A DNA stretch of 41,879 bases. It comes from a virus. Positions 5,752-37,044 of the stretch are shown one piece after another. The stretch spans positions 1 to 41,879 of the IMG/VR virus record IMGVR_UViG_3300046821_000110; one strand, written 5' to 3'. The notes under the pieces are model-generated. The model made no database searches. It worked only from the letters and a program-made list of their open reading frames with translations, and had not been told where the DNA came from. Every line of letters begins with the position of its first letter. Position 1 is the first letter of the stretch. The position numbers were made by a program, and so were the translations under genes.

Positions 5752-5765
5752 CTTGAGGATGTTTG

Positions 5766-8700
5766 ATGGCCCTTTTACCGACACTCCCTGGTATCAATGC
5801 ACCTATTGATCGTACTGAGCAAAAGTTAGACAAGTTGGAAGCTAAATCTGCTGCCAAAAAAATACTTCTTGCAGAGCGTTCTGGGATGTCGGGTGGGGCC
5901 ACAGTTCCTGATCCATGGAAAAATCATGATCGGGCTGTATTCTTGTTGGAGCAGGAAAAGCTCGCAGCAGATGCTCGTAATGAACAAGCAATTGTAAGCG
6001 ACGATGACCTGCACACGTTTTGGGGCAGTCGAACACAGGAAGGGGCTTCCATAGCGACAGGTGGTGCCCGTCTTGTTGGCGATGTAGCAAGTGCCCCGGC
6101 CACTGCATTTGCTGACGCACAACTGAGTGGTGTCAGTGATGAAATGCGGGCCTTGTATGATGTTGAACAGGGCTACAAGTCTCAAGTTGAGGGGCTGAAA
6201 TCGGCTGAAACAGCCCTACAATTCGATGTAATGTCGGGGAAACTGGGGCCAATTGAGGCTGCTGCACGTCGTTTGGAATTACGTAACCAGCAGAAAGCTC
6301 TGGTAGCCCCCGATACAGAAAAGCTAAAGGCACTAGATGTACGGCCTGAGCAACGTAATGTTGCCCAGAACCCTACTGGTGCTTTGGCCTTCGCCCCGTC
6401 TGACTATCAAGATGCGGGTCTGATTGAACAAGAACTCTCTCCTCGTGAACGTATCGAGGCGGCAAAAAACGCTTTGAAGTTCGCTGGCACTGTCGATAAA
6501 TCCATCGAAGGTATCACTGAAGGGGTGATAAACCCGCTCAAACGTGATGTCCTCAACGCCGATATGAATGCTTCGGTGGAAGCCAATAAGGCTTCATTCA
6601 CCGCAGCAAGTGCTGCATGGGATAAGGGTGATACTGGTTCTGCCCTACTCGAAACGGGTAAAGGCATTGCCGGTCTGGTTAAAGATTTTGGTGCCAATGC
6701 ACTGGATAACCCAGACGCTGCACTGGAATACATTGCAGAGAACGTACCCCAACTGGCCTTGGGTGCTGCAGGCAAAACCGGTCAGTTGATGATGGCTCAA
6801 ACCAACCTTGCCTACGGTGCAGACATCTACCGTAAAGGGTTGGAAGAATATCAAGCCAAGAATGAAGGCAAGCTGCCTACTCAAGCTGAAGCCACTGAAA
6901 TGCTTGGCTGGAGTTTGTCAGCCGCAGCTGCTGAACAGGTTGGCGACATGCTGACATTGAGTCCCTTAAAAGGGCCACTCAGTAAGGTAATGGGGGATGC
7001 GTTCACCCAAGTGAAAGCAGGGAAACTGGTAACAGCTGCCAAAGAACTTGGGCGTGTACCTGCTGCAGTAGCTTCCGGTGTTATTTCTGAAGCCCCAACT
7101 GAGGGGTATCAGACTGCAGTGGAAGAAAACCTCTCCAAGCTGAACACTGATTTCGATTTCAACACCATTGCCAAGGCAGCAGGTATTGGTGGGATCGTGG
7201 GTGGTGGATTGAAAGGTGGTATCGAAACGCTGGTACAGACCGGGGATATTGTTTCTGGTGGTGCATTAACTGCCCTAGGTAATCAGGCCGATTCCCTTAA
7301 AGACAAGGCTAAAGGTGTTGTGGATGCTGATGCAGCCAAGGTAGCGGCTTTTGAAGAGGCCAAGACCACAGGTGATGTGGATAAGCTGATCGACTTCAAT
7401 GCCGACACCTTCAACCCTACGGCTGCTATCACAGCCATGCACCACTACACCAAGACCACTGAAGACGACGTTGATCCAGAAGATTACGTGCAGTACGGGG
7501 AAGGTCTGGTTGGTGTAATGGAACAGCAACTGACTGTCAAAGAAGAAGCAGTCAAAGCCCTCCCTGAAGATGCCACTGAGACTGATCGAGAGGCACTGGT
7601 TCAGGACTTTGAAGCAACCCGGGAACAGGTTGCCAGCATGAAGCTAGCTGTAAAAAGCTGGCGTGATGAACTCAGTGGCCTGACCACTGTAGAAGACATC
7701 GACGCAGCTGTGGCCGAGGCAGATACCGACATCACCGAAGCCGATGAAACCGTTGTAGCAAAAGCCACTGAGTCCACCAGCAAAGTGATGACTCTAGCCA
7801 TGAATCGCTCCAGCAAAGTTACGCCTGAGCAGCTGGAAGCCTTGGCTTCCAACACTTCCAATGTGTTGAGTACTGAACAACGCTCTTTCCTGACCCGAGC
7901 TGCTGATGCCCGCCGTGCTATCAATGCCTTGAAGGATGTTGAAGGTGTAAGCAAGGAGGTATTCTCCGGGGGTAATGGCAACTTTGGCCTGAACGACTAC
8001 CAGAAGGACTTCGATACTGCGCACAAAACAGGTAACACCGAACAGGCTACTCGTGCTCTGAGTGAATTGACCCGGTTCACTGAAGGTCATCGTGCCAAAT
8101 TCAACCTGTTCTCTCGTGCCTTTGATGCCAGCGAAAAAGCCGGCGGTACCAAGACCTATTCGTTCCTGCCAGTGGGCAACAACACCGGTAAATGGGTTGT
8201 TGCACCGAAAGGTATGAGCTGGGATGCCGTGCGTAAAAAGGGTGGGGTAAACATCTCTGCACGGAACTCCGGCAACCTGCTCAACGCAGTAGAAATGGAA
8301 GTCAAAGCACTAGAAGCCTCGGCAGCTGAAATGTCTGCTGCTATGAAGATTGCTCGCCCTGTACGTGCTCAAGCCTCCTCTGCCACGAAGAAAGTACCAA
8401 AGCCTCTCCCGGTACAAACCCCGAAGGATGTTACTCAGCTGTCGGATGAAGAAACATCGGCACAGCCGGTAAGTGCTCCGAAGGCTGAATCGGTATCCGA
8501 AGAGTCTAAAGAGGTGGATGCCTTACAAGACCTGACATCTCGGTTGGACTCTATAAATGCTGTGGTACCCAAAGATTTGACAGACTGGGTGCGTGCTAAT
8601 GGTCGTGCGTCTACAGTAGCCTTGTTTGAGCGTCTGCTGGGTAATCCCATTATTCAGGCCATTACGGATGTACAACTCTTCACCCCTGAGAAGAACAGCA

Positions 8701-11700
8701 AACGCCCCGAAGCTGGCCTATATCACCCGAAATCTCGAATTATTCAGATCAACATCGCTGAATCTGCCCTGCGTCATCAGGCAGCAGGGCGTCAGCTGAA
8801 AGCTTCTAAAGTGGTAGACACCCTGATCCATGAGATGGTGCATGCCCTCACCTATGACCTGCTGGAAACCAATAAAGAGCTTCAGGCTCAGGTTGATCAT
8901 CTGCAACAGCAGGTACGCAACTGGATGAAAACCAAAGCGGGCAAAGCCTTGCCTGCTAATGTACGGGAACGGATAAACAATTCGTTGGAATCCCGGCATG
9001 AGTTCTTGACCTATGCGCTGACGGACAAACGCGCACAAGTGGTCTTTTCTCGCATCCCCGTAAAGAATGGCACTTCCGTACTACGTGAACTGGCAGACAC
9101 ACTGCTGCGTTTGTTGAACGAGGTGTTGGGTTCCCAAGCCGTACCGAATAGCGTACTGATTGAAGCCTTGAACCTTACCGATGAACTGCTGACCCCGCTT
9201 AACGATAAAGAATCCACCCCCCAACTGAATGCCACGTCTGACAGCTCACCAGAAATTGGGGCACTGGAGCAGAAAGAGACACCGGCAAGCCAAGATGCCG
9301 ACTTCGAGGAAGAAGTCAGTAAGGCAGAAGCAGACCTGAAAGCGGCTGAACAAAAGCAAACTGAAGAAGCAGACGCAGCTGAGGCAGCCCGCCGTACTCA
9401 ATCATGGGTAGATGGCCGTGTAGCGAAGACGGAGGCCCGCAAGTCTGATTACCTGGGTCAAACCGCAGGTGTGTTGACTGCGTTCAAAGAAGCTGTGGTA
9501 GATCGCATTACTGCTAATCTTTTCCGTGAAAAGAATCTGCTATCTGCCTACTTCAAACAGGTGGCTCAATCCCTGCATTCCACTACCCCACGTCCGTTGG
9601 TGGCAGTGTCGAATTTCATGGCCCATGTAAAAGTGGGAGACATCCTCATGGATGAGTTCCTGAGCCATGGTATGACCGAAGCTCAAGCCCCATTGGTGGC
9701 CCTGTTCATTCAAGCCCATGACAAGTTCGTGGAAACCATCAACAAGGTGATTCCCCCTTCGCTGAACAAGAAAGGGCTGCCTAACAAGGACTGGTATTTC
9801 CGTGAACCCGTGGAGTTCTTCCGTAATGAAGACGGCAAGTTCGATGCAAACTTCCTGACTGCTATGGCTGCTGGTGCCTTTGCTCTGCTGGCAGAAGAAG
9901 TAAATACCCCGATGTACCGTACCAACGAAGAAATCGCCATGATGTTGGGTCTCCCTAAAGAGACTGACGTTGGACGTGATGTGCGTAACCGACTGCGCCC
10001 TATGCTGGCCCGTCGTTTTGCTATCGAGAACAAACTCGGGCAGTTCATTACTGATTCGTTGGGCATCAAGATCAAAGACGAAAACACCCCTGTTGGTGAG
10101 TTGGAGCGTCTACGTGCCCATCTGGGTGCCCATGCCTTGAACATGCTAGTAGAGCTGAATCTCCTTCAACTGAATGAAGTAGACATTGGTACCTATGCAG
10201 GCAAGCCAGCTGATTCTGTCAATGAAGAAGACGCCTCTGAAGATGAAGGGGCTGCTGGCGATGACACCATCAACAAGTTCCGTACTGACATCTTCGTGTC
10301 AGTACCTCGTGATGGTAAGAAGCTGATCGAACCCCTGGAACGCATCAAGAGTGTGTCCAAAGGTACCGGTGGTGTACTGGCTACCCTGTTCGGTATGGAA
10401 AGTGCCCAACAGATGCCCCTGCTTGAGCCACCAAAAGTGACTCAAGAAGACACCAATGGTGGTCTTCAGAAAGTCTCCAAGTCGGTTAAGCGGGCAATGT
10501 CTAAGTTTGCCAGTCGGCAGATGTCGTTCCGTCCTGCCATGACCATGCTGATTAGTGCTGAACAAGGCTTCCTTGAAGACATTGCCGGTATCGAGAATGT
10601 CGAGAAACTGGTAATGCACGCAGAGCTGCGTGAGTCTGCTCAGGCTGCGAACGATAACCTGCGTCGTGAACTGGAACAGCTGCAAGACCTGTGGATGCAC
10701 CTGAGTGCCCTGGGCACCCCATTCCGTAACTTCTTCTCCCTGCCTGACCAGTGGAAGAATAGCCGTATCGGCTACACCGGTTCATGGGCCAACATGCAGA
10801 CCAGTAAGATCGCACGTTTCCTCGTATCCCCTGTGGGTTGGGAGTCTGAGGTGGTGATTGATGGCTCTGCCCCGAACAAGAATCAAACCAGCTTGGATAA
10901 TTTCAAGCTGCGTGTGATGGAGGCTTTGGGTGCCAAAACCGACAGTCAGTCGGATGATGTATCGCTGGCCAACTGGGACAAGATGACCAACGACTTGGAT
11001 ACAGCAAAACACATTGTTGATGCTGTAGCAGCCCTACGCCCGGTAGTAGCTCTGCCTGTTGAACAGCAGAAGCTGTCGAAAGAAGCACAGGCAACCATTG
11101 CCAATGCAGTCTTGAAGTCCAAGACAAAGCTGCACGGCTTCGAGGCATTGGTTGCTCTGGCTCAGTATGAGAACGCTAAAGCAGCAGGGGAATCCAGCTT
11201 CAAAGCCATTGTGACTTCTGAAGTGGATGGTAAGACCAACGGCCCAATGCTGAGTATGTGGCTGCTGGGTGTGATGGACAGTACCTTCGCCGCCATGGGT
11301 GGCTTCTACACGCATGTGAGTCAAGTGCGCAGCTTCGGTCAATGGAAGCCGGGTAACTACGACCTGTATGAACGCACTGCTTCGAGTCTGATTGGGCGTC
11401 TGTTGAGTCGCGGCTTTGAACAGAAGTCGCTGGACGCCCTGTTCAATCTTCTTGGTTCGCCGTTGAACGAAGACAACAGCATCTCTAAGGCTGGGCGTGA
11501 TCTGGTCAAAAATCCATTGACCACCCTCATCTACGGTTCTGGTCTGGAAACCACCGTGGAAAAGATGACCGATGTGTTCATCGAGAACGTCTACAAGACC
11601 ATGGGTCAGATCGCTGAAGGTAAAGCCTACGGTGCTCAGAAACTCACTGGTGTTGCTGCGTGGGCACAGTACCAAGAAGACCTGAAGGAGATGTCAGGGA

Positions 11701-14700
11701 TGTCTCAATACCTGTTCCCGGGTGAACTGGAACAGGCTATGGAAACACCTATGGAAGCCGCAGCACTGAGTAATCTCCGTGAAGAGTTCAAAGAGTCGAT
11801 AGGCAAAGCTGTTAAAGACACCATCAATGAAGACTTTAAGGGCTACATGGACGCCCGTAAGCAGATGGTGCGTCAGGCTAACGGTGTCTGGACTATGTAC
11901 GACATGGTTCGTACCAAACTTCTTGATGACCTCACTGAACAGCTGATGGACTGGGGTGAAATTGATTTCCAGTGGATCACTGTTGATACCGATAAAGTGA
12001 TCGGCAAAGACAAAAAAGGTCGTCCGGTATTCGAGAAAAAGAAAGTACGCCAACCGCTGCGTGAACTGACTCCAGCTGAAAAAGCTCCGGCCCTGGAAGC
12101 TATCAAGGACATGGAACCGCGCATCAACACGGCTCTGTCCAAGCGAGATGGTCAATTGGATGCTGGCATCTACGTGTCCAAGTCGGCCCGCAAAGCCTCT
12201 AACAGCCCTACCCACACCACGGATGTGAAAGGGGTGGTCAACGGTGAAAAAACCAACCACAAATCCAAACCTGTAATGCGTGTGGAGTCGAACCCAGGCG
12301 TATCCATTATGGCCAACGGTGTGCAGTCTCTCGATGGCAACACCATCGTGGAAGTACTGGCTGCCTTGAATTTGGTGGGGGTGCATGACGCTGTACTCAG
12401 TGCTCTGCATGATGCGGCTGCTGCCGGCCAAGCCATGAACCAGCAAGTGATGGATATGCTGCTGAATCACTCGCTGCCCCGTGAAAGTTACGAATCGCTG
12501 GAGCGTACTCTGAAGGGCTTCGCGGCCTACATCGAACAGAATCCGGGTGACATCAGTAAGGAAGCTCTAGGGGAACTGCTCAACTCCCAGAAAGAAGACC
12601 GTAAAGACCCCGTGTCATTTACGATTCTGGTTCAGCGTGCAGCCCGTTTTGCCCATGAAGCGGACTACAACCGTTTGGATGGTCTGAGCCAATTGGCTGT
12701 GGTGGATCAATACACCATCGCTGCTGGTATCTTCGATGTACCCAACAGCTTCAACAATCTGGCTGCCAAGAAACGGGATGCTCTGTCTCCGAAAATCGAC
12801 CCGGCTTTGTTGGCAATTGCTGCCCAGTTGGACGAGATCGTCTTTGCCAAGAAGGTTCCCGTAGCAGCAAAAACTGCTGCTAAGAAAACCCGTAGTACTC
12901 AGGTAACTGACTTCGACCTGGATGCCCTGCTGCAAACCGAGGGGATCACCGCCAATGAAGTAGCGGCCAAGCTGTTCAACAGCATTGGTACACCTCAAGA
13001 CGGTGACACCATGGGTAAGCTGTACCGGGAAATCCTGAAGCGCGGCATCAAGCAGCTCCAAGGTCTACCGATTGTCTATGCCACCTCGGATTCCCAGATT
13101 CCTGAGAAAGCCAAGGATGCCTATGGTTGGTATCACGTTGATGCTGATGGCAAAGCTCATTTGGGTATTCGTGGCACTTCCATGGGTGGGTCTGGGGTGA
13201 CTACTGAGCTGGTCGTGCATGAAATTCTGCACGCCATGGTGGCCTGGATCATTGACCAAGCTGAGAAAGGTCATGGTAGTGCTGAAGTACTGGCTGCTGT
13301 GGCTGATCTGGAAGCCCTACGTAAAGAGCTGAAGCCTCTACTGGAAGCTGAGCACAGCGAAGCAGTCAGTACCTTGCAAGAGTTCGTGGCATGGGGGATG
13401 ACCAACCCTGCTTTCCAGAAAGCCATGGCTGCTGTGCCTATGGTGGAAAAAGGTTTTGCTGCCCTGAAGAACAAGGCTCAGCAATTCTTCCGTGCCATCT
13501 CCACCATCGTGTTCGGTGTCCGTGGGCCTGCCATTGAAACCGCCCTGAGTATATTCATGGCTCGGGTATCGGTGATCGTTGGTGAGTCGGAAACCACTCA
13601 AGCAACTCAAGCACCGGGCACTTATCGTATGGCTGCCCACAACTTCAATGCTGTGGGCCTGTTCAACGGACTGGCTGCACAAGGTAACGGCTACACCGAT
13701 CCCTACCTGCAAGAGAGAGTGGCGGGCCTCATGTCTACTGTCGTGGATGCGGTAGGTGGTCCTTTCCAGCAGTTCTATCAGCAGATCGCTCAAAGCGCGA
13801 CTACCCCTGCTGGTTTGGTAGCCAATGCTCAGCAGCAGGGCTTGATGCCGGTCACAGCTGGTCTGCGTACCAGTGGCTTTGCTCTGGGTGACCAGCAAGC
13901 CTATGCGATTGAAGTGCTCACTGAGACCTTCAAGGCTATCCAACGGGACACCACAGGGGCTGCCCAACAACAACTGCTGAAGCTCTTTAAAGAGACTTCT
14001 AAGCAAGTGACTGCGGCTGATCTGGGTGGTCAAGCACAGTGGGATGCCATCTTTGGTGCTGAAGCCATCGACACCGATGGGGATTATCTGGCTCGCTTTG
14101 CTGCTATGGCTCTTGCCTACCCGCCTCTGGTGGCCAAGATGGGCTTTACCACCCAAGAGGTAGTGCGGGAGTCCACCACCCTGTATGGGCGTCTGGTGGC
14201 CTTCTTTGAGGGCATGATGAACGCACTGTCTAAGGCAGCCCACAAGGCGTATGCCGGTCAACGTGCTGATGCCAAGCTGGATACCCTGACCAAACGTCTG
14301 GTACTGCTGGAAGCTAAGTATCAGCTGCGTCAGCAGCCGTCGATGATGAATGATCTGCTAGATGGTCTGGAAGACAAACTAACCGACGTGGGTGAGTCTG
14401 CGCGTAAAAAGCTGATTGAACTATCCCAGTCCTCGTACCTGGGTGGTGCAAATAATCTGTACCTGAAAACCGCCGGCAACGTAGTCAAGATGGTGGCTGA
14501 ACAGCGTGTTGGTTACATGCTGGATAACGTAGAGAAAATCTACAACCGCTCGGTGAAGGGTCAAATGGGCATCTTGGGTTCGCTGTTCAATGAACTGCGG
14601 GGCACCCGTGACACCAACATTATGGGCCGTGCCTTGATGATCAAGAACAAGTCGCGTGAGAAAGAACGTGAGGACATCAATCGGGACATTGCGAAGTTAC

Positions 14701-17018
14701 TGGCTGATCCGTTCAAAGAACTATCCAAGAAGGAATCTGACAACATCACCAAGGTGCTGCTGCGTACTGACGTGCAGGCGCTGTGGGGCACCTTCACGGA
14801 TGTGGAAATTCGTGAGCTGTTGTCACGTCCTGCCAAGCTGAATGCTGCCATTGTCCAGTACCAGAATCAGTTGCCTGCTGCACTGAAGACCTACTACGAA
14901 AACCAATCGGACTTCACTGCATTCATGCTGGCTGTGGGCGAAGACAAGGGCGACAACACCCAGTTGAATATCCACAACATCGCTGACCTGAGTGGCACAA
15001 AACAGGCTGGCACGCTGAGCGATGTAGAGGTTGAAGCCAACATCAAAGTGTTGGACGTGTTGGTTACCCTGAAAGCCCTGAAGTTCACCAATGAAGGTGA
15101 TCGGCAGAACATGGCAAGCCTGATGCTGCGCGAACCAGAAGGCGTTAAGACGGCTCTGCTGATGCACCGTGGTCTGATGGAAAAGGCACGTACTGAGACT
15201 TTCGTGGGTACTGAGCGCCTGATGCGTAAAGGCTACGTTCCGGAGATTCACAACCCCCATGTGGAGTTGGTTCCGGTGCCAGAGGGTGCTATGGAGGATT
15301 ACATCAAGCAGGGCTACAAGTACCACTACCACTTGCCTGCTGATCCTGCTGACGTGACGTATGAGCCACGGGTACTGATGTCGGTTGAGAAGATGACCCC
15401 ACGTATTGTGTCGGGCACCTTGTCTATCACCAGCATGCAGTCTCAGGGTTCTGCAGTTCACAGCGGTCTGGAGATGTACGACTTCAGTGGGGTGAACACG
15501 TTCAACCAACACACCAATAAGCGTATCGCCAAGAAGCGTGAGCAGCATATTGATCGGTTGTTCAAGGCCCCACATGGTAAAAACCTGTTCGATATGCAAG
15601 TCACTCGGATGACTCCAATCTCCAATCCGAATGGTGAGATGGTGGGTTACCGCTACATGATGAGCCACGAAAACCGTGACATCCTCCTTGAGCGCAACAA
15701 CAACTTCGCACAAGTGCTAGCTGAGATGGCTTCTACCGTCTTCGACAAGCAAACAACCCCGGTACATAACCGTGAAGTACTGACTGCTATCAAAGATCAG
15801 TGGGAAATCGAGCAATCTGTTAATCCTGAAGCCTTCCTGTTGGTAGGTCTGGACAGTGCGGATAAGGATTTGCGTGAGCGTTACCTTGCAATCCCCTATG
15901 AAACTCGCAAAGACATTGCGCGTATCTGGGGTGATAACAACATGATGATTCGTCGTGATCTGATTGATCTGCACTTGGGATACCGTAAGGCATCTTTGAC
16001 TGATCTTCTGACCGACAATGGTAAGCATGAAGGAATAGTGAAAGACTTCTTCCTGTGGTTGGCTAAGGATGTATTCAACATCAGCCCCAAAGGTCTGCGT
16101 CGAATCCTGAAGGCTGAGAACATCATCATGGCAGTGAACCAGGAGATCAAAGACTTTTTCGTAGTGAAGTCCGGTGTTACTACCTTCTGGAACATTGTCA
16201 GCAACCTAACTCTGTTGAAGCTGTATGGGGTTTCAATTCAGGAGATTGTGCGCTCTCACAAAACAGCCCTGATGGGTGCTCGTGATTGGCAAAAGCATGA
16301 CTCAGAGCTTCGTCGCCTGAAGGCAATGAAGGATTCTGGTCTGGTCATTGGCAGTTCTTCCGAGATGGATCAGCAGATTGCTGTACTGGAAGATCAGATG
16401 GCACGGAACCCAGTCCGTGAGGTGATGATGATGGGCATGATGCCTACCATTGTGGAGGATATGGATGCAGCGGAAGACCCGTATTCATACAAGAGTTATG
16501 CAGCTCGTAAGGCTGAAAAGGTAACTCAGTACATTCCGGGTTTTGTTAAGCAGGGTGCGAAGTGGGTATATATGACCCATGACACTGGCCTGTATCAGAT
16601 CATGAGTCAGGGAGCGCAGATGAGTGACTTCGTGGCACGGTATACGCTGTTTGAACACCTGAAGACTCGGCGTAAAAATCCGCTGGCTACAGGTGAAGCA
16701 GCTATCCAAGCTATTGATGCCTTCATCAACTACGACTTGCCGTCTAACCGTTGGGTGCAGTACGCCAACGACATGGGTATCGTGCGGTTCACCAAGTACT
16801 ACTTGCGGATTCAAGCTGTACTGGCTCATCTGTATCAGAACAACCCTGCTCGGGCACTGTTCTTGGCCACCATTGAAAACTACTTCAGTGGTCTACAGAC
16901 GGTGATGGACTCTTCCTTGTGGAACCGAATCGGTTCCCCACTGGAGGGTGGCCCATTCGATGCGCTGGAAGCTATCGAAAGTGGGCTGGTAAGCCGAATG
17001 CTTGGCAAGGTGTTCTAA
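5766..17018 (+). CDS. Giant virion-encapsidated RNA polymerase (N4 gp50 type)
   Basis: 3,750 residues from ATG 5766 (GAGG seven bases upstream; a TTG at 5763 is also in frame). The centre holds a single-subunit RNA polymerase of the T7/N4 class. Around R1667 a TxxGR-like region runs into NMQTSKIARFL. Motif A is SEVDGKTNG with D1821. Motif B is R1911-x3-K1915-x7-Y1923-G1924, an exact match to RxxxKxxxxxxxYG. Motif C is GVHDAV with D2208. The spacing resembles N4 mini-vRNAP (D559, R666/K670/Y678, D951). Zincin-like HExxH motifs flank the core at 1022-1026 (HEMVH) and 2485-2489 (HEILH), each followed by an EF[LV] motif. The N-terminal arm and the C-terminal arm of more than 1,200 residues lack known motifs and probably serve packaging and ejection. 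In N4 the enzyme is injected with the genome and transcribes early genes from hairpin promoters. Confidence 0.93.
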   Translation: MALLPTLPGINAPIDRTEQKLDKLEAKSAAKKILLAERSGMSGGATVPDPWKNHDRAVFLLEQEKLAADARNEQAIVSDDDLHTFWGSRTQEGASIATGGARLVGDVASAPATAFADAQLSGVSDEMRALYDVEQGYKSQVEGLKSAETALQFDVMSGKLGPIEAAARRLELRNQQKALVAPDTEKLKALDVRPEQRNVAQNPTGALAFAPSDYQDAGLIEQELSPRERIEAAKNALKFAGTVDKSIEGITEGVINPLKRDVLNADMNASVEANKASFTAASAAWDKGDTGSALLETGKGIAGLVKDFGANALDNPDAALEYIAENVPQLALGAAGKTGQLMMAQTNLAYGADIYRKGLEEYQAKNEGKLPTQAEATEMLGWSLSAAAAEQVGDMLTLSPLKGPLSKVMGDAFTQVKAGKLVTAAKELGRVPAAVASGVISEAPTEGYQTAVEENLSKLNTDFDFNTIAKAAGIGGIVGGGLKGGIETLVQTGDIVSGGALTALGNQADSLKDKAKGVVDADAAKVAAFEEAKTTGDVDKLIDFNADTFNPTAAITAMHHYTKTTEDDVDPEDYVQYGEGLVGVMEQQLTVKEEAVKALPEDATETDREALVQDFEATREQVASMKLAVKSWRDELSGLTTVEDIDAAVAEADTDITEADETVVAKATESTSKVMTLAMNRSSKVTPEQLEALASNTSNVLSTEQRSFLTRAADARRAINALKDVEGVSKEVFSGGNGNFGLNDYQKDFDTAHKTGNTEQATRALSELTRFTEGHRAKFNLFSRAFDASEKAGGTKTYSFLPVGNNTGKWVVAPKGMSWDAVRKKGGVNISARNSGNLLNAVEMEVKALEASAAEMSAAMKIARPVRAQASSATKKVPKPLPVQTPKDVTQLSDEETSAQPVSAPKAESVSEESKEVDALQDLTSRLDSINAVVPKDLTDWVRANGRASTVALFERLLGNPIIQAITDVQLFTPEKNSKRPEAGLYHPKSRIIQINIAESALRHQAAGRQLKASKVVDTLIHEMVHALTYDLLETNKELQAQVDHLQQQVRNWMKTKAGKALPANVRERINNSLESRHEFLTYALTDKRAQVVFSRIPVKNGTSVLRELADTLLRLLNEVLGSQAVPNSVLIEALNLTDELLTPLNDKESTPQLNATSDSSPEIGALEQKETPASQDADFEEEVSKAEADLKAAEQKQTEEADAAEAARRTQSWVDGRVAKTEARKSDYLGQTAGVLTAFKEAVVDRITANLFREKNLLSAYFKQVAQSLHSTTPRPLVAVSNFMAHVKVGDILMDEFLSHGMTEAQAPLVALFIQAHDKFVETINKVIPPSLNKKGLPNKDWYFREPVEFFRNEDGKFDANFLTAMAAGAFALLAEEVNTPMYRTNEEIAMMLGLPKETDVGRDVRNRLRPMLARRFAIENKLGQFITDSLGIKIKDENTPVGELERLRAHLGAHALNMLVELNLLQLNEVDIGTYAGKPADSVNEEDASEDEGAAGDDTINKFRTDIFVSVPRDGKKLIEPLERIKSVSKGTGGVLATLFGMESAQQMPLLEPPKVTQEDTNGGLQKVSKSVKRAMSKFASRQMSFRPAMTMLISAEQGFLEDIAGIENVEKLVMHAELRESAQAANDNLRRELEQLQDLWMHLSALGTPFRNFFSLPDQWKNSRIGYTGSWANMQTSKIARFLVSPVGWESEVVIDGSAPNKNQTSLDNFKLRVMEALGAKTDSQSDDVSLANWDKMTNDLDTAKHIVDAVAALRPVVALPVEQQKLSKEAQATIANAVLKSKTKLHGFEALVALAQYENAKAAGESSFKAIVTSEVDGKTNGPMLSMWLLGVMDSTFAAMGGFYTHVSQVRSFGQWKPGNYDLYERTASSLIGRLLSRGFEQKSLDALFNLLGSPLNEDNSISKAGRDLVKNPLTTLIYGSGLETTVEKMTDVFIENVYKTMGQIAEGKAYGAQKLTGVAAWAQYQEDLKEMSGMSQYLFPGELEQAMETPMEAAALSNLREEFKESIGKAVKDTINEDFKGYMDARKQMVRQANGVWTMYDMVRTKLLDDLTEQLMDWGEIDFQWITVDTDKVIGKDKKGRPVFEKKKVRQPLRELTPAEKAPALEAIKDMEPRINTALSKRDGQLDAGIYVSKSARKASNSPTHTTDVKGVVNGEKTNHKSKPVMRVESNPGVSIMANGVQSLDGNTIVEVLAALNLVGVHDAVLSALHDAAAAGQAMNQQVMDMLLNHSLPRESYESLERTLKGFAAYIEQNPGDISKEALGELLNSQKEDRKDPVSFTILVQRAARFAHEADYNRLDGLSQLAVVDQYTIAAGIFDVPNSFNNLAAKKRDALSPKIDPALLAIAAQLDEIVFAKKVPVAAKTAAKKTRSTQVTDFDLDALLQTEGITANEVAAKLFNSIGTPQDGDTMGKLYREILKRGIKQLQGLPIVYATSDSQIPEKAKDAYGWYHVDADGKAHLGIRGTSMGGSGVTTELVVHEILHAMVAWIIDQAEKGHGSAEVLAAVADLEALRKELKPLLEAEHSEAVSTLQEFVAWGMTNPAFQKAMAAVPMVEKGFAALKNKAQQFFRAISTIVFGVRGPAIETALSIFMARVSVIVGESETTQATQAPGTYRMAAHNFNAVGLFNGLAAQGNGYTDPYLQERVAGLMSTVVDAVGGPFQQFYQQIAQSATTPAGLVANAQQQGLMPVTAGLRTSGFALGDQQAYAIEVLTETFKAIQRDTTGAAQQQLLKLFKETSKQVTAADLGGQAQWDAIFGAEAIDTDGDYLARFAAMALAYPPLVAKMGFTTQEVVRESTTLYGRLVAFFEGMMNALSKAAHKAYAGQRADAKLDTLTKRLVLLEAKYQLRQQPSMMNDLLDGLEDKLTDVGESARKKLIELSQSSYLGGANNLYLKTAGNVVKMVAEQRVGYMLDNVEKIYNRSVKGQMGILGSLFNELRGTRDTNIMGRALMIKNKSREKEREDINRDIAKLLADPFKELSKKESDNITKVLLRTDVQALWGTFTDVEIRELLSRPAKLNAAIVQYQNQLPAALKTYYENQSDFTAFMLAVGEDKGDNTQLNIHNIADLSGTKQAGTLSDVEVEANIKVLDVLVTLKALKFTNEGDRQNMASLMLREPEGVKTALLMHRGLMEKARTETFVGTERLMRKGYVPEIHNPHVELVPVPEGAMEDYIKQGYKYHYHLPADPADVTYEPRVLMSVEKMTPRIVSGTLSITSMQSQGSAVHSGLEMYDFSGVNTFNQHTNKRIAKKREQHIDRLFKAPHGKNLFDMQVTRMTPISNPNGEMVGYRYMMSHENRDILLERNNNFAQVLAEMASTVFDKQTTPVHNREVLTAIKDQWEIEQSVNPEAFLLVGLDSADKDLRERYLAIPYETRKDIARIWGDNNMMIRRDLIDLHLGYRKASLTDLLTDNGKHEGIVKDFFLWLAKDVFNISPKGLRRILKAENIIMAVNQEIKDFFVVKSGVTTFWNIVSNLTLLKLYGVSIQEIVRSHKTALMGARDWQKHDSELRRLKAMKDSGLVIGSSSEMDQQIAVLEDQMARNPVREVMMMGMMPTIVEDMDAAEDPYSYKSYAARKAEKVTQYIPGFVKQGAKWVYMTHDTGLYQIMSQGAQMSDFVARYTLFEHLKTRRKNPLATGEAAIQAIDAFINYDLPSNRWVQYANDMGIVRFTKYYLRIQAVLAHLYQNNPARALFLATIENYFSGLQTVMDSSLWNRIGSPLEGGPFDALEAIESGLVSRMLGKVF

Positions 17019-29387: not shown

Positions 29388-30557
29388 ATGAGTGACTTCA
29401 CTTGTGGAGGGCAGGTTTGCGGTACTGGTGATTGGGCAGGCCCGAAACCAGGTGATCCAGACAACAATGTCGTGATCTCTGCACAGCCTGCGTTCGGTGG
29501 AATTGACGTTAGCTGGACTTTTCCAGGCATCAATCCACACGCAGTAGCTCATGTGATCTTGTATCGCAGTGCGAACATTGAACCTGAAACTATGGTCCAG
29601 TTGGCCAAGGTTAATGGCACGTTCTACTTCGATCGGTCAGCTTCACTGACTCCTATGGAGTTCTTTTATTGGATGCGTATCGTGTCTATCAATGGCACGG
29701 TAGGTCCAGTCATTGGTCCAGCCTCTTCCATTGCACGCGATACGATCTCTGACACCATCAAGTCCCTTACAGGGAAGATTGATGCTGGTGTTTTGGCACA
29801 GTCGTTGAAGACTGACTTGGCAAAGATCGAGATCAATGCCTTGGGTATCACTCAAGAGATACTTGAGCGTGCTCAGAATGATGATGCTCTGGGTGCATCG
29901 TTCAATGAGATTCAGGCATTCTCTGAAGAGACTCGTGCTCTGGTACAGAATGAGGTCTTGGCACGTACTGAGGCTGATGCAGCCTTTGTGAATGTGGCCA
30001 ACACCATCTATGCAGAGACTGAGGAAGCTAAGACTGCTATTCAGACACTCAGTCAGGTGGTTGCTAAGGCTGACCAAGCTCTAGCTAAGCAGATTACTGC
30101 AGCTCAGACCGAGTTGAATGGCAACATTGCTCAAGTCGAAACCAACATGCAGTCTTCCATTAAGCATGTGGAAGGTAAGGTTGATGAGATTGGTGCCCTT
30201 TATACCGTCAAAGTAAACGTCAACGGTCTGGTTGGTGGCTTTGGTGTGTACAACGATGGTCGTGAAGTCCAGGCAGGCTTCGATGTTGACACCTTCTGGA
30301 TCGGTCGTACCAATGCCCAGCTAAAGAAACCCTTCATCGTTTCAGGCGATGAGGTATTCATCAACGGTGCTGTGGTTAACAAGATCACGTTCAACCAGAT
30401 GCGATCTGATGACGGTTCCCTGTTGTTCGCAGGTGGCAAGCTACAGGTCAAGTACATTCAGGTTGATGACCTACAGATTACCAATGCCAACATCAAGGGT
30501 GACTTGAAGTCGGATAACTACGTAGCTGGTAAATCGGGCTGGATCATAAAAAAGTAA
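29388..30557 (+). CDS. Tail-tip/fibre protein with fibronectin-like and DUF1983-like domains (0-frame product)
   Basis: 389 residues from ATG 29388, which has GGAGGTG six bases upstream; a TTG at 29349 is in frame but poorly placed. Order: short N-terminal CGGQVCGTGDWAGP, a fibronectin type III-like domain (about 27-110, VVISAQPAFGGIDVSWTFP), a long helical stalk (about 115-275), then a region resembling the C-terminus of siphovirus tail-tip proteins (DUF1983): YTVKVNVNGLVGGFGVYNDG, then TFWIGR, FNQMRSDDG and SGWIIKK. Such proteins sit at the distal tail and contact the host. Translation probably also continues by -1 frameshifting at 30548 into the next frame, giving a product of about 586 residues. 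Confidence 0.8.
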   Translation: MSDFTCGGQVCGTGDWAGPKPGDPDNNVVISAQPAFGGIDVSWTFPGINPHAVAHVILYRSANIEPETMVQLAKVNGTFYFDRSASLTPMEFFYWMRIVSINGTVGPVIGPASSIARDTISDTIKSLTGKIDAGVLAQSLKTDLAKIEINALGITQEILERAQNDDALGASFNEIQAFSEETRALVQNEVLARTEADAAFVNVANTIYAETEEAKTAIQTLSQVVAKADQALAKQITAAQTELNGNIAQVETNMQSSIKHVEGKVDEIGALYTVKVNVNGLVGGFGVYNDGREVQAGFDVDTFWIGRTNAQLKKPFIVSGDEVFINGAVVNKITFNQMRSDDGSLLFAGGKLQVKYIQVDDLQITNANIKGDLKSDNYVAGKSGWIIKK

Positions 30558-30592
30558 CTGCCATCACCCTGCCTTACCTACAGAGTGATGGC
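30548..30592 (+). promoter_or_regulatory. Predicted -1 programmed ribosomal frameshift signal
   Basis: Slippery heptamer A-AAA-AAG (30548-30554) is exactly in phase with the zero frame (ATA-AAA-AAG-TAA). A five-base spacer follows, then a hairpin: GCCATCAC (30560-30567) with GTGATGGC (30585-30592), 8 bp perfect, extended inside by CTG/CAG after one mismatch. The -1 frame is open from GTA 30554 straight through the next gene to 31147. The downstream ATG (30614) has no good ribosome binding site. Confidence 0.75.
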
Positions 30593-30613
30593 TCAACTGC
30601 CTACGGTAATTTC

Positions 30614-31147
30614 ATGGCAGAGTTTAACGATGCTTCCTTTTCTGGGGATGTCTCAGGTCTGGAAGGTACGTTCTCAGGTGTTCTAACTGCTGATGCTGTT
30701 AATGCTGCAGCCAACATAAACATTGCTGGCCAGGCGGTTGCTCTTACGACTGTATCTTTCCTGGCTGATCGTCGAGGTTTCTCAGATGGTGATGGCTGGT
30801 TGAAGGTACACAGCTGTAAGTTTGTAGTTCCTGCAGATGACCTATCAGGGGGTTGGTTTACTGGTGGTGTGCAGTATCGCCTGGTGGATATGAAAGGCGA
30901 CAACGATCAGTACTTGATGCAGTACCGTCTTCGTCTTAATGGCAAGGTGCTATTTACTTCTTCTGGCTGGTATCGCTTTGGTATTTTCTGTAAGCGTATT
31001 CAGGAGTTCTACCACGAAGTAGCAGGGAAGATTGATACCCCTGGTATGTATGAACTTTCCATGGATTATCAGTTTGCTGAAGCACCTACCAACGTGTACC
31101 CAATCTTCAGCAATATCATTTTTCGTGTTGATTACGTGAGGAAGTGA
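30614..31147 (+). CDS. Fibre distal domain, likely expressed as a frameshift extension of the tail-tip protein
   Basis: 177 residues if started at ATG 30614, but there is no convincing Shine-Dalgarno. The frame is open upstream to the slippery site at 30548, so the natural product is probably a fusion that adds about 197 residues to the tail-tip protein. The N-terminal segment EFNDASFSGDVSGLEGTFSG continues the beta-rich pattern usual after SGWxI in tail-tip proteins. The rest is a beta-rich domain with many aromatics, plausibly a receptor-binding or trimerising head. Its first 40 residues resemble the N-termini of the next two proteins. Confidence 0.7.
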   Translation: MAEFNDASFSGDVSGLEGTFSGVLTADAVNAAANINIAGQAVALTTVSFLADRRGFSDGDGWLKVHSCKFVVPADDLSGGWFTGGVQYRLVDMKGDNDQYLMQYRLRLNGKVLFTSSGWYRFGIFCKRIQEFYHEVAGKIDTPGMYELSMDYQFAEAPTNVYPIFSNIIFRVDYVRK

Positions 31148-31148
31148 C

Positions 31149-31595
31149 ATGTCGTATATAGAGCTTTCCGACACGATGTTCCGTGGCACCTTAAAAGGTG
31201 CTCGGGGAAAGGCTCGTTTCAAACTCACAGCTAAAGCGATCAATGCTATCGACACTGTGAACATCAACCACAACATGGTCACCTATGACTACAACATCCA
31301 GTACAGCACTCCTAGTCAGTCCGCTGGTTCGGTGCTTGTTACTGCTGGCATCAACGTGCCAGATGAGGAAGCCTGGGTAGAGATCATTGCTTACGGGGCT
31401 GGTGCTGGGAGTGTCCGGGTAAACGGAAATACCATGCCCAACCGTAACTTACGTGGTCCTGGACAGAAGCTGCTGCCTTTCGTGTCTGTAGTGAAACTAC
31501 CTAAAGGGCAGCATACAGTGCAGCTGATTTCTGCTGCTTCTGGGGCTTCTTCGGGTTTTATCATGTGCCGTTACATTCGTAAGACGGGTGGTTGA
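31149..31595 (+). CDS. Fibre-associated protein, paralogue 2
   Basis: 148 residues. The N-terminus (ELSDTMFRGTLKGARGKARF, then INAIDTVNINHNMV) follows the same pattern as the preceding and following proteins; the C-terminal beta domain differs. GAGG lies seven bases before the ATG, so this one is translated on its own. The end, GFIMCRYIRKTGG, suggests a closing beta strand. Probably a small appendage or tip subunit; function inferred only from context. Confidence 0.6.
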   Translation: MSYIELSDTMFRGTLKGARGKARFKLTAKAINAIDTVNINHNMVTYDYNIQYSTPSQSAGSVLVTAGINVPDEEAWVEIIAYGAGAGSVRVNGNTMPNRNLRGPGQKLLPFVSVVKLPKGQHTVQLISAASGASSGFIMCRYIRKTGG

Positions 31596-31597
31596 AG

Positions 31598-32188
31598 ATG
31601 ACGCTTCCTTCAGGTTATGCAGAGTTCAATGATGGTGATGCGGTAATCCGGGGACGTATTGCCGGTTCCGATGGAACCTTCTCTGGTTCATTTGATGCAG
31701 CCAACATTAACGCCATTGAAAGTATCAATGTGCGTAATGGGGCTGTGTCCGCCTACTACAACTTCGAGTTTCCTAATAAAAGCATGAAGGCTGTGTTTCA
31801 AATACCTGGCCAAAAATACACCCAGATTGCAGACATCATCATTCCTATTAGGATGTCTGCATTAGGAAATATAGAACCTTGGCAGGCTGCTAAAATTGAC
31901 CTGTATAAAAATGGAGTACTGCTGTCACATGCAGAAGTCTATTTTAATGGTTGGACTGTAAAAAGAAGTGGTGGTAGAAATAGTGGAAGTTATACACAAT
32001 CTTTTCGCCTTGAATATCTTCAGGTTATTAGATTTGTTGATTTTGAAGTAACAGGTAATGCTACATATGAACTTATTCTTACGAATAGTTCTTACTTAAA
32101 AAAAACAAGTCCAGGTGCTGAAACAGCCAGTCCTGCAGTGATGTTGGATATGCTTGGCCCTGTAACAGTTGGTTTTCGTAAGAGGTAA
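31598..32188 (+). CDS. Fibre-associated protein, paralogue 3, with AT-rich distal region
   Basis: 196 residues. The N-terminus (LPSGYAEFNDGDAVIRGRI, GTFSGSF, INAIESINVRNGAV) is the third copy of the module seen in the two preceding genes. From about 31790 to 32110 the DNA becomes clearly AT-rich, with many AAA, ATA, TTA and AGA codons unlike the neighbours, which suggests a recently acquired distal domain. A TTG at 31592 and ATG 31598 are both possible starts; neither has a strong ribosome binding site. Likely a receptor-contact protein. Confidence 0.6.
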   Translation: MTLPSGYAEFNDGDAVIRGRIAGSDGTFSGSFDAANINAIESINVRNGAVSAYYNFEFPNKSMKAVFQIPGQKYTQIADIIIPIRMSALGNIEPWQAAKIDLYKNGVLLSHAEVYFNGWTVKRSGGRNSGSYTQSFRLEYLQVIRFVDFEVTGNATYELILTNSSYLKKTSPGAETASPAVMLDMLGPVTVGFRKR

Positions 32189-32193
32189 TTAAG

Positions 32194-32592
32194 ATGGTAG
32201 CTGCAACGATTTATGACAAGCGTAATGGTCAAGTGATCATGACGGTCGAAGCGCCTGATGAGGAATCAGTTGAGCTTCAAGTGAGTGATGAGCTGAACCA
32301 GAAGATTCTATGGGGTCGGCGTGTGGATGCTGCCAACTTCTACTTTGTGGCTGGTGTGGATGTAGCTCGTCCTGTGATGGATTTGAGTATTAACCACGCA
32401 GGCGTCCTGGCTAAAGGTCAGCTTCTCAAGGTGGAAGGTATCCCTCTAGGCTGCTCTGTTGTGTATCCGGGGGGCCAGACCACTGTTAACGATGGCTACA
32501 TTGAATGGGCTTCAGTAACCTCAGGTGAGTTTGAAATCTATCTCACCTGCTTTCCCTACAAAGAGGTAATCCTTAATGCCATCGTTGGGTGA
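32194..32592 (+). CDS. Tail-associated protein of unknown function
   Basis: 132 residues, beta-rich (ATIYDKRNGQVIMTVEAPDE, then GVLAKGQLLKVEGIPLGC and VNDGYIEWASVTSGEFEIYL). Short proteins of this type are encoded beside tail fibre genes and may act in fibre assembly. AAGAGG lies eight bases before the ATG. It overlaps the next gene by 17 bases. No motif for a specific function. Confidence 0.55.
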   Translation: MVAATIYDKRNGQVIMTVEAPDEESVELQVSDELNQKILWGRRVDAANFYFVAGVDVARPVMDLSINHAGVLAKGQLLKVEGIPLGCSVVYPGGQTTVNDGYIEWASVTSGEFEIYLTCFPYKEVILNAIVG

Positions 32593-32959
32593 ATTTGATG
32601 GTCTGGCTCAAGAGCCGGCCACCCTACAAGACATTGATGCAGCTCGTTTGGCTGCTGAGTCTGTAGTACAAACTTCTCGTGGTGCGTTGCAGTTTGATCT
32701 GGTCAGTCGCCAGCGCATGAATGATGTACTCATGACTCTGGAGCCTGATAACGCGAACTCTGCTGTTACTTGGGTAATGGCAGACAACACCAAGCAGTAC
32801 CTGTGCTATGAAGAGTTGCGTGATCTTCACTATGAAGCCACCACTCTGATTGGTCCTCGTATTGGGCGAGTCTTCGACATTGCATCGGAATTAAAAGAAC
32901 GGCTTCGGCGTGGTAAAGTGGTGACTCTCCGGGACATCAGTGATGAAGCCTGGAAGTGA
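32576..32959 (+). CDS. DUF4376-like tail protein
   Basis: 127 residues. The section VVQTSRGALQFDLVSRQRMN, then VTWVMADNTKQYL and a helical end (IGRVFDIASELKERLRRG) resembles the DUF4376 domain found at the C-terminus of phage tail fibre and fibre-assembly proteins. The similarity was judged by eye. Its start lies within the previous gene, so the pair is probably coupled. A terminator follows. Confidence 0.5.
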   Translation: MPSLGEFDGLAQEPATLQDIDAARLAAESVVQTSRGALQFDLVSRQRMNDVLMTLEPDNANSAVTWVMADNTKQYLCYEELRDLHYEATTLIGPRIGRVFDIASELKERLRRGKVVTLRDISDEAWK

Positions 32960-34849: not shown

Positions 34850-35167
34850 ATGTATACCTACCAACAACAGACTAAAGATGTGCTCGATTACGATGTCATC
34901 ATGGATGATTGGTTTGCTGAAATCCCCGGTGATGACATTCAATCGGTAACCATCACAGTTACCAGTGTTACTGGGCTGGATTTGGCACTTGTAGTAGGGC
35001 CAGCGCCTCACCCAGAGTACGTTCTTATGGGTGCCACCCCTACACGCTTTAAGGTGTGGATCGGTGGTGGTACTGAGTTTGAGGACTACATCGTGACCTG
35101 CTTGGTTAAGACTGAGCAGGATCGAACCTTCGAAGTTGAGTTCAAAATTAAGGTGCGGAATAAATGA
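34850..35167 (+). CDS. Ig-like beta protein, fibre adaptor type
   Basis: 105 residues. The sequence VLDYDVIMDDWF, then SVTITVTSVTGL, then KVWIGGGTEFEDYIVTCLV and FEVEFKIKV fits a known phage family of small Ig-like proteins (usually V-W-L-x-G-G-T followed by Y-x-V) encoded just before tail fibre genes. It may act as an adaptor or fibre base. The stop overlaps the next start (ATGA), so it is coupled to the S74 fibre. Confidence 0.65.
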   Translation: MYTYQQQTKDVLDYDVIMDDWFAEIPGDDIQSVTITVTSVTGLDLALVVGPAPHPEYVLMGATPTRFKVWIGGGTEFEDYIVTCLVKTEQDRTFEVEFKIKVRNK

Positions 35168-37044
35168 GTAACCTTGGAAACTTTGTTCAGTGCCGTTTTG
35201 TAACTCCACTGGCTATCGGTGCAACGGAGATGACTCTCTATGCTGCCGATGCCCCCTACAACCTGCCCCCTGCTGAGGGTGGTTTGCTGGTGCTGTGTGA
35301 CAGTCCCGGCAATCCCTCTTTCATTGAGGTGATCTCGTATACCTCCCGTACTGGGTTGAACCTGTCGGGGGTAGTACGGGGTCTTGAAGGGACTACTGCT
35401 CGTGCATGGTCTGGCTTTGCCTACTGCTTCCAGTCGATGTTGGCTGGCGACTATGCAGCTGACATGAATGCCAAAGAGAATGCCATTACTGCTGGTACTG
35501 CTGCGCAGATGTGGTTAGGTAACAAGACTTGGGCATCTGTACTGAGCCAGGTGCAGGGTACTTTGCTCACTGGTTTGAGCTTGGCTACTGGCACGGCCAT
35601 TACTGCAGCCGACACTGTGTTGTCAGGTTTGGGTAAGCTCCAGAAGCAGATCACTGATGCTGCTACCAATCTGGCAGCTAACGTGCGTGCTGTTGCTTTA
35701 ACTGGTTACCTGGCAGGTAGTAACACGGCACTGGCAGCAACGGACACTATTCTGGCTGCCATGGGCAAGTTGCAAGGTCAGCTTAATGCGCGTGCGCCTT
35801 TAACTGGTGAAGGTACTTCTGGTTCCTGGCCTATTTCGGTAACAGGAAATGCTGCGCGTGCCCGTCCTCAGCGATCTGATAATGCTAGTTGGGACCTCTA
35901 CTGGAGTAACCCAGGTGGTCAACCAACTTATTACTTAGGTAGTACGGATGGGGCTACCGTACAGCCATATGCCATTGGTGTAATGAATGTTGGCTCTGCT
36001 ACCAAGTTGGCGACGGCTCGGACAATCAATGGTGTGCCTTTTGATGGTACAGCCAACATCACTATTGCGGCAGGTGAGACAGGTCGGCTGCCGTTAACTG
36101 GTGGCACGTTGACTGGTCGCCTAAACGGTACTAGCTGCGGGATGGTTGGTACAGGCAACGACTACAGTAGCGGAGCCTACGAGGTTATAGGCAATGGCGC
36201 CTCTAATACGGTCTTCCCTACAATTGGCTTCCATCAACCGAGTGCGTACGCCTCCAGCTTGCAGTTGCGTGGTGCCTCCGACTTTCGCTTCTATGCTCAA
36301 GGTGCAGCAGCTTACGCTAACGTGACTGCTAACATTTTCTACGGCACGCTGTCAGGCAACGCTTCTAGCGCCTCCTCTGTACCGTGGTCAGGCGTATCAG
36401 GTAAACCAACAACGCTTGGGGGTTACGGCATTACCAACGGCTACGCGATGGATGGCGTGAACACCGGCTGGTTTCGCAGTTACGGCGGAAACGGCTGGTA
36501 CAACCAAGATTACGGTGGTGGCATCCATATGACGGATTCCACTTATGTTCGCGTCTACAATGGTAAAGCCTTCTACTGCGCCGGTAATGAGATTGTCCTT
36601 GAAGGGACTAGTCCTACATTACGGCTTTATGACACCGACAATGCGATAAATCGCTATGTTCACGCAAATGGCGGTACAGTCGGCTTTCTCAGAAGCGATG
36701 GCAACTGGGGCTTTTATAACGACAACTCAGGTAATACTTACTCTGTCGGTAACGTGACTGCTTACTCTGATATTCGCCTCAAGACTGATATTGAAGTAAT
36801 TCCAGATGCTCTGGCGAAGGTGATGAAACTACGTGGCGTAACGTACACACGTATTGATTCTGGTGAACGGCAGACAGGTGTCATTGCACAAGAGATCAAA
36901 GCAGTGCTCCCGGAGGCTGTTATGGTTGGCGCTGACGAAGACGCAACTTTGTCGGTAGCTTATGGCAACTTGGTGGGTCTGTTGATTGAAGCCATTAAAG
37001 AACTGAAGGCTGAGGTTGATGTGTTGAAGCAGGGGGCTAAATAA
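35164..37044 (+). CDS. Tail fibre with C-terminal S74 intramolecular chaperone
   Basis: 626 residues. The N-terminal region is probably particle-binding (about 1-105). Repeat-rich stalk elements follow (TGLSLATGTAITAADTVLSG, AATDTILAAMGKLQGQL, then ARTINGVPFDGTANITI). A Tyr/Gly/Asn-rich distal part includes GWFRSYGGNGWYNQDYGGG. The C-terminus is a peptidase S74 domain: YSDIRLKTDIE with cleavage serine S535, then GVIAQEIKAVLPEAV and a coiled-coil end. S74 domains drive trimer folding, then cut themselves off, which would release about 92 residues. This is the best candidate for the main receptor-binding fibre. Confidence 0.88.
   Translation: MSNLGNFVQCRFVTPLAIGATEMTLYAADAPYNLPPAEGGLLVLCDSPGNPSFIEVISYTSRTGLNLSGVVRGLEGTTARAWSGFAYCFQSMLAGDYAADMNAKENAITAGTAAQMWLGNKTWASVLSQVQGTLLTGLSLATGTAITAADTVLSGLGKLQKQITDAATNLAANVRAVALTGYLAGSNTALAATDTILAAMGKLQGQLNARAPLTGEGTSGSWPISVTGNAARARPQRSDNASWDLYWSNPGGQPTYYLGSTDGATVQPYAIGVMNVGSATKLATARTINGVPFDGTANITIAAGETGRLPLTGGTLTGRLNGTSCGMVGTGNDYSSGAYEVIGNGASNTVFPTIGFHQPSAYASSLQLRGASDFRFYAQGAAAYANVTANIFYGTLSGNASSASSVPWSGVSGKPTTLGGYGITNGYAMDGVNTGWFRSYGGNGWYNQDYGGGIHMTDSTYVRVYNGKAFYCAGNEIVLEGTSPTLRLYDTDNAINRYVHANGGTVGFLRSDGNWGFYNDNSGNTYSVGNVTAYSDIRLKTDIEVIPDALAKVMKLRGVTYTRIDSGERQTGVIAQEIKAVLPEAVMVGADEDATLSVAYGNLVGLLIEAIKELKAEVDVLKQGAK

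Follow-up and report, generated by a model that had tools for sequence, protein, structure and literature searches.

Among the slippery heptamers compared in E. coli, A_AAA_AAG is the most shift-prone, and the E. coli dnaX gene, which carries it, reaches 50% shifting (PMC5009743). The dnaX cassette joins A AAA AAG to a simple 3′ stem-loop, and in the reversed arrangement of some bacteria the zero-frame stop lies right after the site and the longer product results from the shift (PMC5009743). Frameshifted minor forms of virion proteins are already known: in the T3 capsid protein and in Listeria phage tail proteins with Ig-like domains, a shift near the gene end yields a minor form with an extra domain (PMC5009743). 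A frameshift-made fibre is known from Orsay virus, where CP-delta gains, by a shift at the end of a structural gene, a fibre whose head is thought to be receptor-binding; a free fibre protein may also exist (PMC5344674). Among J-like fibres, lambda gpJ comprises FNIII, helical, beta-prism and receptor-binding parts, is the product of a single uninterrupted gene and has a homotrimeric receptor-binding domain (PMC11101478). In the N4-like phage DEV, the J-like fibre protein gp56 is accompanied by extra proteins encoded directly behind it; in an asymmetric model based on AlphaFold3 and an 8.5 Å map, the gp56 trimer bears a single copy each of gp55 and gp54, and gp54 has been suggested to bind LptD as its receptor (PMC12892993).

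The locus described here lies in the window, by which we mean the whole 41,879-nucleotide stretch of viral DNA that was analysed (IMG/VR record IMGVR_UViG_3300046821_000110). Its fibre gene (29388-30557, plus strand) starts at ATG 29388 with a Shine-Dalgarno duplex of -13.1 kcal/mol and encodes, in the zero frame, 389 residues ending in GWIIKK. This product matches the phrog_496 tail fibre family (E 5.8e-72) and, with residues 256-389, positions 4-117 of the 139 in the PF09327 profile (Phage_Tail_Tip; E 1.9e-10; 41.1 bits against a cut-off of 22), and hence ends within that domain. Because these are J-like fibre families, a tail assembly chaperone frameshift of the lambda gpG/gpGT type was rejected. 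Identity to the J proteins of most litunavirus records listed is 44-46% (LIT1, 44.9%), and it is on such litunavirus proteins, not on the DEV sequence, that the likeness to DEV rests. The initial annotation had called the product a tail-tip protein; in related Schitoviridae, however, the J-like protein forms a receptor-binding fibre that sits next to the tail plug and not at the very tip (DEV gp56, PMC12892993). A second fibre gene of the window (35164-37044) encodes 626 residues with a C-terminal Peptidase_S74 chaperone domain, and is probably a long tail fibre or spike.

The J-like gene ends in ATA AAA AAG TAA (30546-30557), in which six A (30548-30553) and G30554 complete an A AAA AAG heptamer in zero-frame phase (30548-30554, plus strand), with the TAA stop (30555-30557) directly 3′ of it. 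A spacer of 5 nt (30555-30559) leads to a putative stimulatory hairpin (30560-30592), whose 8-bp stem GCCATCAC/GTGATGGC pairs 30560-30567 with 30585-30592; three inner pairs, 30569-30571 with 30581-30583, bring the arms (30560-30571 and 30581-30592) to 11 of 12 pairs around a loop of 9. Heptamer phase, adjacent stop, five-base spacer and 8-bp hairpin can thus be read directly from the sequence as first annotated. Of 300 dinucleotide shuffles of the 60 nt downstream of the heptamer, 296 fold less well than the real sequence (z -3.0), and a 101-nt stretch at the site (z -2.5) was equalled by none of 200. In the 12,713 codons of the listed window genes, A AAA AAG occurs in phase a single time. 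A Shine-Dalgarno-like element lies about 10 nt upstream of the site in dnaX and is not generally required. Unlike dnaX, the gene studied here encodes a virion fibre protein, and the 5′ element of the window is weak: without a shuffled control, it amounts to -4.3 kcal/mol, with -6.3 and -3.8 in the relatives L206 and L207 and -7.9 to -10.2 in the other 9 of 12 sequences. Taken with the conservation described below, this arrangement makes a programmed -1 ribosomal frameshift at 30548-30554 almost certain, and we infer that a substantial share of ribosomes slips at A AAA AAG, stimulated by the hairpin. Among openly available journal papers searched by title, we found no report of a frameshift signal in a J-like fibre gene, which by that measure appears to be new; the word 'frameshift' is likewise absent from the main text of two papers on Nickievirus isolates (PMC8537276, PMC11256456).

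Slippage would lead into a -1 frame that runs from 30554 to 31147 (plus strand) without interruption and encodes 197 residues, hereafter extension A, followed by a stop. The predicted long product has 389 + 197 = 586 residues, so the lengths first given, 389 and about 586, are borne out. An open frame of this length was rejected as evidence by itself, since at least 197 such codons follow the stop in 3 of 36 listed genes because neighbouring genes overlap. Residues 1-21 of the extension (30554-30616) form a linker encoded by the hairpin region and predicted to fold as a beta hairpin, residues 22-60 (30617-30733) carry a shaft motif, and residues 61-197 (30734-31144) make up a predicted beta-sandwich head. 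In unshifted J proteins the chain continues in frame from a Gly-Trp motif into the shaft motif, and in Schitoviridae lacking the cassette (98PfluR60PP, phCDa, Minga_mokiny_4) one continuous J gene ends about 40 residues past the same Gly-Trp motif. By sequence comparison, the -1 frame supplies the shaft continuation that unshifted J proteins have in frame. The J gene of Enterobacter phage N5822 (L244, 1-3803) is annotated in consecutive pieces, perhaps owing to sequencing errors or decay.

Modelled as a single chain from 10 sequences (mean pLDDT 72), the extension displays a mostly confident beta-sandwich at residues 61-197 and nothing confident at 18-60. Its first Foldseek match in the PDB is lambda gpJ with LamB (E 6.4e-7), and VIA-align of residues 61-197 returns the BC2L-C N-domain (Z 10.2, rmsd 3.1, 117 residues aligned) as well as Pgp3 and TNF-like lectins. 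The folds of the BC2L-C N-domain, Pgp3 and the TNF-like lectins are trimeric. As predicted, the extension would therefore add a shaft end and a beta-sandwich head resembling those of lambda gpJ and the TNF/C1q-like trimeric heads, and the C-terminal head of receptor-binding type of this J-like fibre would be encoded only in the -1 frame; at such low identity, fold scores point to a common arrangement and not to a function.

Behind the extension lie gene B (31149-31595, plus strand; 148 residues) and gene C (31592-32188, plus strand; 198 residues; TTG start, with ATG 31598 possible), both of which are free-standing paralogues of the extension. Profile comparison with hhalign relates A, B and C with probabilities of 97.5-98.1%, and the alignments begin at about residue 22 of A, residue 4 of B and residue 8 of C. 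For the model of gene C (mean pLDDT 69) the first Foldseek match is again gpJ (E 1.8e-6), while VIA-align yields mixed sandwich folds (BcsB, Z 10.3, rmsd 3.3, 119 aligned; Pgp3, Z 9.3; gpJ, Z 8.8), so that it resembles other sandwich folds, such as BcsB, equally well as gpJ. Downstream of the cassette, most of the 14 members listed have genes D (32194-32592, plus strand; 132 residues) and E (32576-32959). A 253-residue gene resembling SAM-dependent methyltransferases by eye stands between C and D in L205 (4593-5351), alone among these 14, and gene B of the L137 phage (L222, 3157-3807, minus strand) has a long proline- and glycine-rich insertion absent from other B proteins.

The paralogues accompany the frameshift. 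With a single profile, three matches were found in all 8 IMG/VR members, in the window and in four Nickievirus records, and two in the plasmid introduced below, whose gene B was placed by position and alignment; six J relatives without a frameshift had none, and nine further records with unshifted J had one match (four records) or none (five). At least two matches were thus present in 14 of 14 frameshift records, and three in 13, whereas more than one occurred in 0 of 15 records with unshifted J, counts that include some fragmentary records and a profile built from A sequences. Scanning IMG/VR with B gave 7 loci, all on contigs already known, and with C 9 loci, namely seven known contigs together with L238 and L239. 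The latter two were rejected as cassette members, being ordinary one-frame J proteins; in L239 a gene similar to D by eye stands directly behind the unshifted J. Phage records in which an unshifted J motif was found (438 places in 436 records) were also rejected as a control set for the absence of B and C, because a like search misses B and C even where they are present (6 places in 6 records).

On the basis of these observations we consider it somewhat probable that frameshifting generates two forms of J, a headless chain of 389 residues and a chain of 586 residues with the shaft end and head A, and that these enter a mixed head. In this model, B and C are made unattached and share the shaft motif and the head type of A; a single chain of the J trimer would be long, with B and C filling the positions of the two missing extensions and contributing shaft strands and heads to a hetero-trimeric A+B+C head with a composition of 2 short : 1 long : 1 B : 1 C. 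The mixed head itself we hold at about even chances. The initial annotation had envisaged a mix of short and long proteins in the particle: the two forms are strongly supported by conservation, and, as the extension forms a head domain and two free-standing paralogues of it are encoded next, the mix probably has a defined composition. At one shift in three, random mixing would by arithmetic place exactly one long chain in 44% of trimers, under half, so that the mixed head would require selection during assembly. A still more tentative proposal, for which we see slightly less than even chances, is that frameshifting acts as a symmetry breaker: about one headed chain would be made per two headless ones, a three-fold fibre would end in an asymmetric head of tethered A and free B and C, and the cassette would have passed between the tails of podoviruses and siphoviruses. 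Were this so, the composition of a putative receptor-binding head of a phage would be set by a recoding signal, and the locus would allow the change of a three-fold fibre to asymmetry to be tested directly, for which isolated phages carrying the cassette exist.

The asymmetric fibre of DEV may, by analogy, be regarded as a precedent for the mixed head. It differs in that a litunavirus J gene of this type (L004) has no frameshift, and the genes in the gp55 and gp54 positions behind J in L002, L003 and L004 gave no counterpart in the window by tblastn (best E 0.12). In contrast to the extensions of the T3 and Listeria proteins, the one found here is a J-like fibre head that is conserved together with two free paralogues, and unlike the pentameric single-protein fibre on the capsid of Orsay virus, an animal RNA virus in which free delta was dispensable for infection in the assay described (PMC5344674), it belongs to a phage fibre.

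A true programmed frameshift could also serve a different assembly, in which part of the fibres end in a homotrimeric A3 head made by the long form, while B and C assemble into homotrimers of their own or into adaptors attached to that head or lying beside it. Homotrimeric heads do occur in unshifted J proteins such as lambda gpJ (PMC11101478), and the added proteins of DEV are described as monomeric adaptors on a complete trimer (PMC12892993). However, B and C carry the shaft motif of A and start where the motif of the extension starts, among the records compared they never occur unless the frameshift is present, and with an A3 head it would be hard to see what the short form is for. We therefore judge this arrangement unlikely, though it deserves to be taken seriously, and prefer the mixed A+B+C head.

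The cassette is not confined to the window. Among 50,697 phage records, tblastn with the extension matched 6 (nickie twice), all of them Nickievirus, 112-kb phages of Pseudomonas syringae, with 36-38% identity over all 197 residues. Five of the six records were read; all five have CTA AAA AAG TAG with a hairpin in the corresponding position, and all are annotated with two genes there; in the isolated phages hairong, phiK7B1, ZY21, nickie and Nican01 the head is listed as a separate hypothetical protein, an annotation that the frameshift would correct. A profile scan of IMG/VR with the extension returned 9 loci (one a near twin of the window, one nickie), with the heptamer in place in 9 of 9, and a plasmid of Endozoicomonas gorgoniicola carries the same junction. 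One further member, L137, was added by a pattern scan for the heptamer, which gave 82 stretches; of the 83 occurrences examined in loci L109-L212, 11 pass the open-frame filter (L137, L171, L187 and L205-L212, with L171/L206 and L187/L207 being the same contigs), the rest being chance. In another set of 14 pattern loci, 7 are members (one window twin, one nickie) and 7 are chance. Scans of bacterial genomes with the extension profile or B alone, which used narrow peptide patterns and are weak evidence of absence, found no relative.

The carriers include N4-like phages and Nickievirus siphophages as well as one further phage-like contig and a plasmid. A giant N4-type virion RNA polymerase is encoded by the window, L206 and L207, whose J parts are 63-65% identical; the Nickievirus-type J chain spans at least 1000 residues in the available sequence and is 25-30% identical to window J; J of L137 has 338 residues (34% over 127 columns) and that of the plasmid 260 (33% over 110 columns). 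Judged by these differing lengths and identities, the cassette occurs in at least four fibre contexts. The virion RNA polymerase of the window (5763-17018) has 3751 residues and a SprT-like match at residues 982-1035 that scores 25.5 bits, against the Pfam cut-off of 25.6.

Every extension homologue that was read has the same heptamer and a hairpin at equal spacing. Conservation of the heptamer in relatives had been named at the outset as a check, and A AAA AAG is identical in all 15 sequences compared; TAA or TAG occupies the zero-frame stop position in 14, and the plasmid has TGA five codons later. The stem is folded by 15 of 15 (z -2.0 to -5.2), with its core starting 5-6 nt past the heptamer and some folds extending it upstream. 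Near-duplicates were dropped before counting, namely L005, L009 and L015 (near twin of the window), L208 and L023 (nickie again) and MG018927 (a second nickie record). In a structure-anchored count over 11 sequences, which leaves out phiK7B1/ZY21 (identical stretch) and Nican01 and L210 (near-identical to nickie and hairong), 121 of 132 cells are paired, and sliding the 3′ arm lowers this number to 47-69. In a gapless alignment restricted to 10 rows, 9 of them distinct and without L205, L211 and L137, whose loops are longer, 93.5% of cells are paired versus 33-52% when slid; shuffles reached the real value in 1 of 500 cases both for the covariation score and for cells paired. Two of the five covariation measures lie within the shuffles: 63 of 500 shuffles reach the real value for pairs changed in both arms, and 79 of 500 for additional pair types. 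Taking the arms from the individual fold of every sequence biases the counts towards pairing, a bias that the controls reduce without abolishing it, and the independent lineages are few, several rows being close relatives. RNAalifold recovers the same stem unaided. The stem of L137 differs in sequence and forms 9 of 12 pairs with its own arm, compared with 6-8 with the arms of others, and in L205 and L211 the 3′ arm lies 8 nt further on and in a different codon phase. Heptamer, spacing, hairpin and -1 product are accordingly conserved across several phage types, and a -1 frameshift giving the predicted products of 389 and 586 residues is strongly supported by sequence.

This conservation bears on the view that frameshifting merely rescues or tunes an extension that was recombined out of frame, with the ratio of the forms being structurally meaningless. 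Such an origin has been proposed for phage Ig-like extensions, which occur in or out of frame (PMC5009743). Here, the junction of heptamer, stop and hairpin has been kept although the fibre genes upstream are only 25-34% identical, and the scans with the extension, among them those of phage records and IMG/VR, and the scans with B and C turned up no extension homologue whose head is joined in frame next to B and C. A mere rescue is hence improbable, and a maintained frameshift is the reading we retain.

Could the extension be a separate gene, translated by re-initiation or internal initiation near the stop? In 12 of the 15 members a GTG lies 4-5 codons upstream of the shift point in the -1 frame, which leaves some room for re-initiation in these 12, and the annotators of the Nickievirus records used such starts. 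In the window, L206 and L207, however, the -1 frame has no ATG, GTG or TTG upstream of the site, and the first start codon downstream comes only after 18-20 conserved codons. Conservation of the -1 protein begins at the shift point, and the similarity to Nickievirus includes residues 1-20, upstream of any ATG of the window, a part for which the self-starting genes B and C have no counterpart. The first start codon of the -1 frame in the window, ATG 30614 at residue 21, has a Shine-Dalgarno duplex of -3.1 kcal/mol, where J reaches -13.1 and gene B (start at 31149) -9.9, so that the ribosome binding site said to be lacking there is indeed not convincing. The conserved heptamer and hairpin would moreover need another reason, and we give independent initiation hardly any weight beside frameshifting.

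Transcriptional slippage on the A run could lead to the same product; such slippage has been described where 9 A or T follow one another (PMC5009743). The run at this site has only six A, and the conserved heptamer phase, the stop and the spaced hairpin mark ribosomal frameshifting, which leaves transcriptional slippage very improbable. That the junction is a sequencing error or a chance frameshift mutation is the least credible explanation, practically dismissed: one extra A would make the gene continuous, yet seven A, the case named at the outset as fatal to a frameshift, are seen in none of the 15 sequences compared, and the same junction recurs in isolated phages, metagenome contigs, a plasmid and a second IMG/VR contig of a near-identical phage (99.94% identity over 7,167 bases) with the identical six A. 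Apart from the focal site, the only in-phase heptamers of the all-A type in the listed window genes are A AAA AAA in gene C (32098-32104) and A AAA AAC in the virion RNA polymerase gene (5763-17018).
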